Part shown: one piece after another, positions 41,463-58,311 of the stretch
Position numbering within the stretch: the stretch's first letter is position 1
Layout: each line of letters opens with the position of its first letter
Source: Pontibacter sp. G13
Lineage (GTDB): Bacteria > Bacteroidota > Bacteroidia > J057
Assembly (NCBI RefSeq): GCF_031851795.1
Contig: NZ_CP134696.1
Coordinates: forward strand, 3,616,501-3,680,500
Direction: 5' to 3'
DNA length: 64,000 nt
Translations under genes and position numbers: made by a program
Notes under the pieces: generated by a model
Told to the model about the DNA's origin: nothing
The model's input: the letters and a program-made list of their open reading frames with translations, nothing else
Databases searched by the model: none

Positions 41463-41480
41463 TTTAGGGGGTATAGAAAA

Positions 41481-41526
41481 GAAACCGGGAGGTTGTTCGA
41501 TGGAACAACCTCCCGGTTTCTTTTTT
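41481..41526. terminator. Strong bidirectional terminator between sod and lspA
   Basis: GAAACCGGGAGGTTGTTC (41481-41498) and GAACAACCTCCCGGTTTC (41503-41520) form a perfect 18-bp stem with loop GATG and a run of six T on the plus strand; on the minus strand it is followed by TTTTCTATAC. It ends the lspA transcript 21 bp past its stop. Confidence 0.92.
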
Positions 41527-53763: not shown

Positions 53764-53939
53764 CACAATGGCGAGCAGGGATGACAGTCGGAAAATTTGG
53801 GATGAATCATCAGGTACACTCAGAGGCTCGATTATTGTAGTAAATTGCAGGATAATCATATCATCGCCTGCTAGTCAACTTTCCGCAATGAGAACCATAT
53901 TGTTGTACAATGTTCCATTGCCCTAACATACGCAACTGT

Positions 53940-55133
53940 ATGAATTACAACGAAGAATCCCTTTTCCTGCACAAACGCCTCGGTGGCAAGATCTCGATCA
54001 TGCCCAAGCTCAATGTGCAGAACAAAGACGACCTTTCTGTGATGTATTCCCCCGGCGTAGCTGAACCTTGCAAGGAAATCGCCAAACATCCTGAAACCGT
54101 CTGGGACTACACCATCAAGCGCAACACGGTCGCCATCGTCTCAGATGGATCTGCAGTCCTTGGACTCGGAAATCTAGGTGCTCATGCATCCATCCCTGTG
54201 ATGGAAGGAAAGGCACTCCTGTTCAAGAAATTCGCAGATATCGATGCCTTCCCCATCTGTCTCGACACCCAAGACACCGAAGAGATCATCGAAACTGTCC
54301 GCAGAATCGCTCCAGTTTTTGGCGGGATCAATCTGGAAGATATCTCGGCACCAAGAAGCTTCGAAATCGAAGAAAGACTTCAAGACCTCGGAATCCCTGT
54401 TTTTCACGACGACCAACATGGCACCGCCATCGTAGTGTTGGCAGCCCTGATCAATGCTTGTAAGCTCACTGGCAAGCGATTGTTTGATCTGCGCGTAGTC
54501 ATCAACGGCGCTGGAGCTGCTGGAATCGCCATCGCTCGTCTCCTTAGATGTGCGGGCTTTGATGCTTCCTCCTGTATCTCCGTCAAGGAAGTCGTCATCT
54601 GCGACAGCAAGGGAATCATCCACAAGGACCGGGAAAACCTCAATCCTGCCAAACAGGAAATTCTGGCCTATTCCAATCCCCGCAACATCAAAGGCAGCTT
54701 GAAAGATGCCTTGGTAGATGCAGATGTATTCATCGGTGTGAGTGTCGGAGGTATCCTAAATCAGGAAGACATCAAAACTATGGCACCTGATCCGATCATC
54801 TTCCCATTGGCCAATCCTGACCCAGAGATCATGCCTGAGGATGCCTACGCAGGGGGAGCCGCTGTCGTAGGAACCGGAAGAAGCGACCTGCCCAACCAAG
54901 TCAATAATGTACTCGGATTCCCCGGTATTTTCCGCGGAGCATTGGATGCAAGAGCAACCAAGATCACCGCAGACATGAAATTGGCCGCTGCACACGCCAT
55001 TGCCGAATGTGTCAGCAATCCTACCCGAGAAGAGATCATTCCTTCTACCCTCAATCAAGGCGTAGCATTTGCCGTTGCTCAGGCTGTCAAGAAAGCTGCC
55101 ATGAGAGAAAAGGAATATGCTGCCATCAAATAA
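53940..55133 (+). CDS. NAD(P)-dependent malic enzyme
   Basis: A 397-residue enzyme that decarboxylates malate oxidatively to pyruvate. The malic N-terminal domain shows [18 protein letters not shown] and the metal/substrate region [17 protein letters not shown] with [14 protein letters not shown]; the NAD-binding domain has [15 protein letters not shown] near residue 190. Only the malic part is present; the phosphotransacetylase-like C-terminal half found in the long (about 760-residue) bacterial form is absent. ATG at 53940 is chosen over one 10 codons upstream because [13 protein letters not shown] fits the family opening. Cofactor preference is not decided. Confidence 0.92.
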
Positions 55134-55163
55134 GAATTTTCATCGCCTCTGAAAATGTATTTC

Positions 55164-55200
55164 TGGACCGTCTTCCCCTTGGAGGCGGTCCAATTTTTTT
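55164..55200 (+). terminator. Terminator after the malic enzyme gene
   Basis: TGGACCG (55164-55170) and CGGTCCA (55186-55192) pair with further partial pairing inside, followed by ATTTTTTT. Confidence 0.8.
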
Positions 55201-55215
55201 GCGCATGGTGGATTT

Positions 55216-55381
55216 GGGCGTGCCCCCGCGGTTTGTCTTGAAGTTCTCCTCTCGGCAGTTAGGTCGCGGGGTCGGTCCCTTCCGTACTCGCAAAGCTCGG
55301 TCTCAGATCTGGGGCCGAAAGATCGGCGGCCCCAGATCTGAGACGCTGCCTGACGGCAGCCACTTCAGGCACCTCACGCCC
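55216..55381. repeat. 166-bp nested inverted-repeat element (REP/MITE-like)
   Basis: The segment is bounded by GGGCGTG (55216-55222) and its reverse complement CACGCCC (55375-55381). Inside is a perfect 17-bp inverted repeat, GTCTCAGATCTGGGGCC (55300-55316) with its complement at 55328-55344, and directly after it a GCTGCC-tgac-GGCAGC hairpin (55345-55360). It is G+C-richer than its surroundings and lies exactly between the terminators of two convergent genes. No protein-coding frame is plausible. This is the form of a REP-like or miniature mobile repeat; other genomic copies are needed to prove it. Confidence 0.6.
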
Positions 55382-55436
55382 CGCATGCCAGCCGCACACC
55401 TACCGCGAGTCCTCTCCCTGAACTTCCAAAAGCAAA

Positions 55437-55466
55437 AAGCGAGACCGCGCAATCGCAGCCTCGCTT
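55437..55466 (-). terminator. Probable terminator after the DUF255 gene
   Basis: On the minus strand AAGCGAG and CTCGCTT pair around a 16-nt loop, followed by TTTTGC. It lies 24 bp past the stop. Confidence 0.5.
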
Positions 55467-55489
55467 ATTCTGGGATCGAGGATGATCCT

Positions 55490-57589
55490 TTATTTCATCT
55501 GTTCTCTGGCAGCAGCAACATCCTGAACGGGGAGCTTGCAGACTTTTTGCTGACACACATAAATGGTCGTCGTACCGGGCACCAACTTCCGCTCCAACAA
55601 CGGCAATTTGCCTTCTGAAGCCCCTCCCATCAGCAATACATTCGGCGCAAACGCTTGATCCCATTCCGCAGCAAACTCAGCCCAATTGTCTCCGAGAATC
55701 GCAACCTCAAAGGGGGAATATGTCAATTTCAACATGAGTTGTGCCCATTGTGCATAATATGCCCCATTTTCCCTGCTACTGGCTGCTACGGCCTGAGCCA
55801 TTTGCGCAGCTCGATCCAGATATTCCTCCTTTTCGAGGTAGGTTCCCAAATCAAATAAGCTGGTAGCCAAAAGAGAATTGGAGCTTGGGATCACATTATC
55901 GGGGATTTCGCGCGGCCTCGTGATGAGGGGATCATCCGTGTCGGAAGTCAAGAAAAAGAAAGGGGAAGCGTCATCGCTGAAATGCGTGATGGCATACTGC
56001 ATCAATTCGTCAGCCTCCATCAGCCATTTTTCATCAAAGGTCGCCTGATACAGCGCGATGTATGCTTGGGTAACTGCCCCATAATCATCCGCAAAAGCTG
56101 GGATGACGGCCTTGCCATCTTTGTAGTTTCGGAGAAGCCCACCGTCCGATGTCCGCATATTTTCCTCGATAAAGGCTGCATTCTTTAATGCGGTTTCCAG
56201 ATAAGCGGGGTTCCTGAAAACGCGGTATGCGTCCACATAGCCTTTGAGCATAAGTCCGTTCCAACCCGCCAAAATTTTATCATCCAGACCGGGCTTGACT
56301 CTTTTTTCGCGCTTCTCAAATAGGACTTTACGATTCTGATCCAATTGGAGGCTGAACTCCTCCGGCTCCATATCGAATTTCTTCGCGACTTCAGCAAGAT
56401 TCTGCCGATAGTAGAGAATGTTGGTTTCCTCCCAATTCCCTTTCGGCTGGATCTCATAGAAATCCTTGAATGCCTTGGCTTGCATGCCCAAGGTTTTCAT
56501 GATTTCCTTCTCGGTCCACGTGTAGAACTTTCCTTCCTCGCCCTCGCTATCTGCGTCATAGGAAGCATAGAAACCGCCTGTTTCGTCCGTCCATTCCCGA
56601 TTCACAAAAGCAAGCGTTTCCTCCACAATCCGCTTATACAACGGCTTTTTCGTCAGTTGATAAGCATGCGCATACAGGGAGACCAATTGTCCGTTGTCGT
56701 AGAGCATCTTTTCGAAGTGGGGCACTTTCCACTCTGCATCGGTAGAGTATCTCGCAAATCCGCCTCCCAACTGGTCATATATTCCTCCAGCGGCCATTTC
56801 ATCCAATGAGGTAGTCACCAAATTGAGAGATTGCTGATCACCAGTTTGGGCATGATATTGAAGCAGAAATTCATGAATAGAAGGCATGGGGAATTTGGGG
56901 GCCTTATTCAACCCACCCAACTGGGGGTCCATTCGGCTGACGATCCCTCCGGCAATTCCATCCAATTGTTCAGGCTCCCAAGTCGAGGAAGAAGCAACAG
57001 GCGGAAGGACATCTGCTTGCTTGATACCAGCAGTCAGTTGTTCGGCAAATTGACTCAACTGGTCGGGCTGGGTCTGCTTGAGATTGACGAAATGCTCCAG
57101 CACCTCCACCCATTTGTCCTTGGGAAAATAAGTGCCCGCAAACAGGGGCCTACCATCTGGCAAAGCAATCGCATTGAGTGGCCAGCCACCACGACCCGAA
57201 ATCAGATATGCAGCATTCATGTAAATCTGATCCACATCGGGACGCTCCTCCCGATCGACCTTGATGGACACGAAATGCTCATTCATGAGTTTGGCGACAG
57301 CAGTATCCTCAAAGGATTCGTGCTCCATTACATGGCACCAATGACATGCGGCATATCCCACAGAAACGATCAACAACTTGTCGGTAGATTCCGCGAGCTC
57401 CAGCGCTTCTTTTCCCCAGGGATACCAATCGACGGGGTTGTGGGCATGCTGAAGCAAATAGGGGCTATTGGTATGGATCAATGCATTGGTGTATGCATGG
57501 GATTCGGTTTTCTGCTGGGATTGACAGGCAGAGAACCATCCTAGAATAGCGAGGAGCCCAAGCCCTCGAACAAATGAGCAAGATTTCAT
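55490..57589 (-). CDS. DUF255/SPATA20-like thioredoxin-domain lipoprotein
   Basis: A 699-residue protein. A lipoprotein signal ([17 protein letters not shown], Cys near residue 22) leads into the DUF255 thioredoxin-like domain: [18 protein letters not shown], the CxxC of [29 protein letters not shown] and [15 protein letters not shown]. An (alpha/alpha)-barrel glycosidase-like domain makes up the rest. YyaL/SPATA20 family members are usually cytoplasmic; a lipidated form here would place it in the envelope. The ATG at 57589 is chosen because the signal starts there. It follows the DUF4159 gene by 23 bp, a likely operon. The reaction is unknown. Confidence 0.88.
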
Positions 57590-57612
57590 GTAAGGTTCGG
57601 TATTGAAAAAGA

Positions 57613-58311
57613 TCAATGGTTCAGTGCCCAAAGCAAAATATTGGCACCCATCTGCAAAGCCATTTCACGGACTTCCACCGGATCATTGTGGACAGTGGTG
57701 TCCTCCCATCCATCGCCAAGATCCGTCTCATAGGTGTAGAAGCAGACGATTCTACCTTCCCAAATCAACGCCAGCCCTTGAGGCGGCTTCCCATCGTGTT
57801 CGTGAATTTTGGGCAGTCCCTTTTCAAAGAGAAAATGCTCTCGGTAAATCCCATGATTGAAGGGAAGCTCCACCCATTCCAATTCAGGAAAGACCTTTTT
57901 CATCTCTCTCCGGATGTATTTGTCCAAGCCATAGTTGTCATCCACATGGAGAAAACCGCCTGATATCAGGTACATTCTCAGATTTTTTGCCTCGGCATCA
58001 GAAAAATTCACATTTCCATGACCGGTCATATAGACAAATGGATATTGGAAAATTTGCGAGCCACCGGGTTCCACGAGATCCTCGGTTTCGGCCAGATTGG
58101 CCATCGTCTCTTCATTGACAAACTTGATCAAGTTGGGGACTGAGGATGGATTTGCGTACCAATCACCTCCGCCCTCGTATTTCAGTTTCCCAATTTTGAT
58201 TTGGGTACCACCGGACTGAGCAGACAGGTCAGCATAGGCGATCAGCAATCCACACAGCATCAACATGATGGGTCGATACAACCGCCGAAAAAGGTTTGAA
58301 AGTCTCGTCAT
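57613..58311 (-). CDS. DUF4159 domain secreted protein
   Basis: A 232-residue protein with a signal peptide ending DLSAQ near residue 32. The DUF4159 domain shows [28 protein letters not shown], then [37 protein letters not shown], and near the end [13 protein letters not shown]. The layout resembles a glutamine-amidotransferase-like fold without an obvious catalytic cysteine. The function is unknown. It is the first gene of a two-gene transcript with the DUF255 lipoprotein. Confidence 0.87.

Follow-up and report, generated by a model that had tools for sequence, protein, structure and literature searches.

REPs with a GTAG or CGTC tag are hairpins of 20-40 bp in which the tag stays unpaired (PMC3733652), and the available parts of two descriptions report CGTC REPs without a dedicated transposase and count the Bacteroidetes among REP hosts (PMC3733652, PMC6006769). 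The IS982-derived MITE of Cardinium is, in the accessible portion of its description, a non-coding element with 169 copies that are mostly intergenic (PMC9769881). Here, we analysed a window of 64,000 nt from the genome of Pontibacter sp. G13, in which an earlier note, made from the letters alone, had read a 166-bp nested inverted-repeat element as a member of a dispersed REP or MITE family moved by a transposase encoded elsewhere. The element is a three-way-junction frame (P1/P2/P3) carrying two hairpin arms, and this arrangement is conserved with strong covariation in 101 copies.

A covarying fold between two convergent genes

The element is located between two convergent genes (53910-55133 on the plus and 55490-57631 on the minus strand) and is flanked by two terminator-like sites, as the earlier note had it; judging from the latter, it would lie outside either transcript. 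The best NCBIfam match of the plus-strand gene was malic enzyme, under the cut-off of that model, and the minus-strand gene gave a weak match only. A gene lies 89 nt away, a search with the E. coli pattern found no sigma-70-type site near this copy in its Bacteroidota host, and a plasmid search returned no match.

In an alignment of 28 copies, the conserved unit begins at ~55210 (GATTTGGGCG) and ends at ~55397 (CCGCAC), and the covariance model R1 matched the window copy at 55208-55400 with 196.5 bits; the real unit of ~190 nt extends past the 166 bp described before on both sides (Table 1). The outer arms GGGCGTG (55216-55222) and CACGCCC (55375-55381) are present as claimed, and they are a covarying closing helix rather than fixed terminal repeats, with GCGTG/CACGC, GCGTA/TACGC and GCGAT/ATCGC among the forms found across the copies. 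The inner inverted repeat is indeed perfect, but measures 18 bp (55300-55317 and 55327-55344) instead of 17, and the adjoining hairpin exists with five pairs in the aligned copies rather than six.

Table 1 Coordinates of the element, its helices and the flanking hairpins within the window
Feature	Position	Strand	Remarks
Whole conserved element	55210..55397	-	conservation limits from alignment of 28 copies; strand from wobble tolerance
Closing helix P1	55217..55380		55217-55222 pairs with 55375-55380; covaries
Arm P2	55224..55271		55224-55230 pairs with 55265-55271; loop 55231-55264 variable
Helix P3	55274..55373		55274-55280 with 55367-55373, one mismatch
P3 second stack	55284-55286 with 55361-55363		third pair unformed in window copy; internal loop TCC/TTC
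Arm P4	55300..55344		perfect 18-bp inverted repeat, loop 9 nt
Hairpin P5	55346..55359		five pairs; 85% of cells paired, weakest helix
Flanking terminator-like hairpin	55164..55192	+	neighbour, not part of the element; behind malic enzyme-like gene
Flanking terminator-like hairpin	55437..55466	-	neighbour, not part of the element; behind convergent gene

A 173-nt stretch of the window copy folded with an energy of -88.1 kcal/mol on the plus and -90 kcal/mol on the minus strand (z = -5.0 and -5.5, respectively), which 0 of 200 shuffles per strand equalled. The fold of the 28 aligned copies has eight helices with 48 pairs in total; of 1341 cells, 96.3% were paired, and 26 of the 48 pairs were altered on both sides. 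Slid controls reached 35-42% pairing and none of 500 shuffles attained any one of five measures. P values overstate significance, the aligned rows being related. One pair in P2, for instance, was GC in 15, CG in 8 and AT in 5 of the 28 sequences, and the first pair of P3 was GC in 16, AT in 7 and TA in 5; P3 covaries in the superfamily described below, too, and the loop of P2 is unconserved. By eye, the P4 arms of the genome fell into perfect hairpins, hairpins with a long variable loop and short hairpins. By eye, the P2 loop might also derive from neighbouring DNA, and two copies ~10 kb apart (L005 and L010) have an identical extra insert in the P2 loop that resembles sequence beside L007.

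The mismatches that the helices tolerate differ between the strands. For 46 pairs in 101 distinct copies from the own genome (4634 cells, 12 gaps), we counted 4458 Watson-Crick, 74 A-C, 5 G-T and 97 other cells when reading the plus strand, and since an A-C on this strand equals a G-U or G-T on the minus strand, it is a single strand that folds, either as single-stranded DNA or as RNA, namely the minus strand in the window. A double-stranded cruciform is unlikely because wobble in these 101 copies is strand-asymmetric. In Flavobacterium, 40 copies had 13 A-C versus 3 G-T; the 13 copies of G009 had neither, and the superfamily alignment, a set chosen by a plus-strand pattern, had 12 G-T versus 7 A-C and hence no asymmetry. 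The minus strand had the better RNA energy in 73 of the 101 copies from the own genome and in 79 of the 103 from the superfamily, against 55 of 101 for adjoining control DNA.

With E allowed up to 1, Rfam 15 gave five matches for positions 54900-55700 of the window, all far under the gathering scores; in 14 related loci the only match to reach its gathering score was an RNase P gene, which overlaps with the edge region of L064. Group II introns have the ends GUGYG...AY, and the minus strand of the element starts with GTGCGG and ends with AAAT, but no intron model of Rfam matched 54900-55700 up to E=1. No published description of the element was found in the literature searched, which had most subscription papers and preprints outside its coverage. 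In the window as a whole, perfect inverted repeats of ≥11 bp filled 27 rows, each nested row of a hairpin being counted separately; five first-order Markov sequences as long as the window had at most two each, the longest of 12 bp. Elsewhere in the window, a 22-bp perfect inverted repeat with a 4-nt loop and a T run at its end (41477-41524) is probably an ordinary terminator.

Copies in the genome and a superfamily beyond it

BLASTN against the own genome (7.67 Mb, three contigs) yielded at least 40 copies, window copy included, as the best 40 of 295 candidates; five further rows were partial or self-palindrome matches. The other 39 copies shared only 74-83% identity with the window copy, which gives no sign of recent movement. 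With R1, built on 28 of 30 fetched copies (L005 and L010 were excluded for their long insert), at least 150 copies were obtained, the best 150 of 1952 candidates, all with E <1e-19; contig C3 contributed two. A sample of 180 kb, taken as nine 20-kb stretches at regular spacing, held nine elements by R1, a tenth row being the reverse reading of one palindrome, and this density extrapolates to ~375 copies for the genome (95% Poisson range ~170-715), so that the element is probably one of several hundred. The dispersed multicopy family that the earlier note had foreseen is thus confirmed by BLASTN and model copies and by the relatives in other genomes, and a single copy without relatives is excluded.

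None of the 101 own copies lay inside a called gene (simple gene caller), and those with both neighbours called (n=80) stood between convergent genes in 37, tandem genes in 36 and divergent genes in seven cases, the tandem ones without bias in their orientation to the genes (17 versus 19). Under a cruder ORF rule, 55 of 60 Flavobacterium copies had both neighbours, 13 convergent, 31 tandem and 11 divergent; these being mostly tandem, gene ends are not preferred everywhere. Along the own chromosome, 35 plus and 33 minus copies were listed for 0-4.0 Mb, as against 41 and 32 for 4.5-7.5 Mb; three and four lay in between, where the GC skew switches sign. For these 148 of the copies listed, there was no orientation bias between replichores.

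R1 matched in 4 of 59 relatives. The frame of the superfamily is GGGCGTG-P2-GTCGGNC...P4...CTCACGC with covarying P1, P2 and P3, and the window element belongs to it by covariation, R1 match and superfamily alignment. As a DNA pattern, the frame occurred in at least 119 stretches of named genomes, of which, among the 119 listed, 107 came from Bacteroidota (six named classes), five from Fibrobacterota, three from Spirochaetota, one from Gemmatimonadota and three from genomes without a phylum; some of the non-Bacteroidota stretches are from MAGs, with the phylum taken from the binning as given. Seven viral contigs also matched the pattern, and on L219, L220 and L222-L224 the frame elements are near-alike and finish with CCCTCACGTG, which may mean that a copy became fixed in a single group of phages.

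The superfamily model R2 was run on 18 of the pattern-positive genomes, scoring the best 150 candidates in each. It detected 35 and 45 copies in two Flavobacterium, 25 in Pedobacter, 26, 22 and 24 in three Fibrobacterota, 25 in a Spirochaetales MAG, 50 in a Saprospiraceae MAG, 6-17 in four genomes of the Chryseobacterium group and Riemerella and 1-4 in the remaining six, both Algoriphagus included; the own genome had 12 matches, again among the best 150 candidates. In 296 genomes spread over the phylum, at least 49 had an R2 match (E ≤1e-4, strict filters, 14 scored candidates each), a lower bound, since the own genome itself was missed under these filters. Element sizes ranged roughly from 75 to 250 bp, and a superfamily with the same core fold and exchanged hairpin arms occurs in many Bacteroidota.

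Exchanged arms, palindrome arrays and the ileS leader

The hairpin arms are modules that are replaced at orthologous sites while the frame stays. L111 and L312, which share a site, retain the frame and differ in P4, and L113 and L311, at another shared site, differ in both P2 and P4; among the 595 pairs formed by 35 Flavobacterium copies, ten were alike in P4, one in P2 and none in both. Four relatives have kept the element at the L149 site. The L427 site lies upstream of a gene with the start MKFFIDTANL that we take to be transaldolase-like, and its left flank was matched in 24 relatives. Among the 16 examined, the site held a model match of unchanged orientation but differing arms in 11, a decayed element recognised by eye in one (L441) and no element in four. 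Element-free counterparts, which may reflect either gain or loss, were found for L169 (L316 and L332), L431 (L440) and L113 (L315, where part of the flank is absent, too). A target duplication was unrecognisable at these three loci, with flanks too diverged to exclude one.

In the own genome, palindromic repeats lie mainly beside one end of the element. Of 101 copies, 44 had such repeats over at least 20% of the 300 nt adjoining the 3' end, and two had them at the 5' end (35 and one, respectively, at a 50% threshold); the counts can include a neighbouring element. The flanks of 40 Flavobacterium copies had repeats once at the 3' and never at the 5' end, and palindrome arrays were absent. Thirteen tail-to-tail intervals were available, from loci mostly picked for arrays: six were gene-free, 0.7-2.5 kb long and consisted to 87-100% of repeats, compared with a repeat share of 1.1% in the spaced 180 kb, two (53 and 126 bp) held no repeats and five longer ones held genes. 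All five neighbouring pairs <1.5 kb apart among the copies listed were tail-to-tail, as were six of eight such intervals at the loci mostly picked for arrays (one head-to-head, one tandem). By eye, the arrays contain repeats resembling those around the Y1 gene at L098. The 3' flanks of L252 and L059 hold tandem composite-palindrome arrays with periods of 176 and 171 bp and ~eight copies, which run past the first fetched stretch, and the arrays at L016 and L281 are mixed.

Three clusters of recurrent neighbour genes were listed for the 119 genome and seven viral loci, two of them representing the ileS locus (one as an antisense frame) and the third an ABC-type ATPase. Eight loci, all from Algoriphagus, cluster by the adjacent protein, which in L119 is ileS (TIGR00392). 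In seven Algoriphagus loci the element is in sense between ileS and a conserved TATCTTTG box, presumably a Bacteroidota promoter, and the loci align across box, frame and gene while the arms vary. Box and element are present in L202, where the gene stretch is missing; L140 from the same isolate was left out because the element is cut there. Promoter-like boxes were in excess downstream of superfamily copies, which, judging from the flanks, is largely owing to the Algoriphagus ileS copies.

Possible modes of spread and comparison with known systems

We consider the element best explained, with a probability of roughly 0.45, as a non-autonomous, structure-selected interspersed repeat that spreads in trans via its strand-specific fold. 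Copies would spread through the folded minus strand, as ssDNA or in the form of RNA; a putative enzyme would recognise the frame and ignore the arms, and recombination or conversion may swap arms between copies. Speaking against this reading, neither the Y1 loci nor the recurrent neighbour genes yielded a mobiliser, no target duplication was recognised, the 39 other BLASTN copies share only 74-83% identity with the window copy, the pattern-selected superfamily alignment lacks wobble asymmetry and the 3' arrays are absent in Flavobacterium. In the own genome, other palindromes might gather at the 3' end as at a landing edge, by which pairs of elements could cap palindrome arrays, and single copies could persist for a local role, such as in the ileS leader of Algoriphagus. 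Going further, one may imagine a widespread, SINE-like bacterial element whose structured RNA, made up of a recognition frame and freely varying arms, would give rise to DNA copies in trans; the copies would exchange their arms, and some would have been tamed as leader RNAs, but we regard this as a long shot.

Several points also fit a structured RNA with a function for the host, its minus strand transcribed and its frame bound by a protein as an mRNA leader or 3' element, so that the copies would be regulatory and not selfish: the strand-specific wobble of the 101 own copies, the sense position between box and ileS in the seven Algoriphagus loci despite varied arms, and the element kept in the same orientation at the L427 site in 11 of 16 relatives, which is compatible with such selection. 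We judge this possible, if on the unlikely side, given the lack of a preferred orientation relative to genes for the own copies (17 versus 19 among tandem neighbours; 37 of 80 convergent), the absence of an E. coli-pattern sigma-70-type site near the window copy and the very many copies next to differing genes. The palindromes at 3' ends (44 versus two of 101 copies) and the gene-free intervals with 87-100% repeats (6 of 13, versus 1.1% in the spaced 180 kb) could instead mean that the element serves as a boundary or landing pad in the DNA, with its folded 3' end as a recombination site where palindromes insert, like an array-founding attachment site. This is improbable: the effect was unseen in Flavobacterium, 57 of 101 copies stay below the 20% mark, a gene follows the window copy at a distance of 89 nt, and the intervals come mostly from array-selected loci and include the two short empty and five gene-containing ones.

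Mobilisation of a REP/BIME-type element by a RAYT (Y1 transposase), as the earlier note had proposed, would agree with an intergenic, palindromic and high-copy element and with the many close tail-to-tail pairs, yet the mechanism went unsupported and now appears very improbable. R1 and R2, with matches taken up to E 0.05, hit 0 of 30 Y1 transposase loci (94 kb in 12 genomes; 30 of 41 Y1 matches), and none of the 30 had a cognate Y1 transposase flanked by element copies. The two Y1 matches of the own genome (L098, G000:C1 near 1435526, and L099, near 5488564) lie by eye amid their own distinct palindromic repeats, and 6 of 18 element-bearing genomes, some of them MAGs, have no Y1 match. Single-strand insertion of the IS200/IS605 type is expected to leave an orientation bias between replichores; this bias is absent, and lagging-strand (HUH) insertion was rejected. 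Instead of a 20-40 nt hairpin with an unpaired GTAG or CGTC tag, the element is ~190 nt long and multibranched and has the ends GATTTGGGCG and CCGCAC; a CGTC-like motif stood beside 0 of 89 superfamily copies on either side, the search pattern being poorly chosen. At three loci, no mobile gene was recognised by eye between head-to-head copies. Least probable is a classic MITE from a DDE insertion sequence, which would be likewise short, non-coding and dispersed; here the ends covary with the fold, unlike fixed inverted repeats, arms are replaced wholesale, and no target duplication was recognised at three loci with diverged flanks.

The superfamily combines a conserved fold with tens of copies or more in several Bacteroidota genera and had no Rfam match where tested. 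The element makes testable how non-coding DNA spreads if recognition is confined to a junction frame, as well as the swapping of hairpin arms and the pile-up of palindromes at one end, and it may have donated a leader RNA to ileS. No known family was found to include the element. With the structured RNAs of Rfam the element shares a covarying structure and strand-specific wobble, but it has no match at gathering score. As far as the accessible parts of the descriptions go, REP/RAYT systems are likewise high-copy intergenic palindromes with dimers and Bacteroidetes hosts (PMC3733652, PMC6006769), whereas the element presented here has a three-way junction, exchangeable arms and no linked Y1 gene. 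The Cardinium MITE, in the part of its description available to us, is equally non-coding, high in copy number and mostly intergenic (PMC9769881); in contrast to it, the present element dispenses with fixed terminal repeats and has an internal fold that is conserved through covariation.
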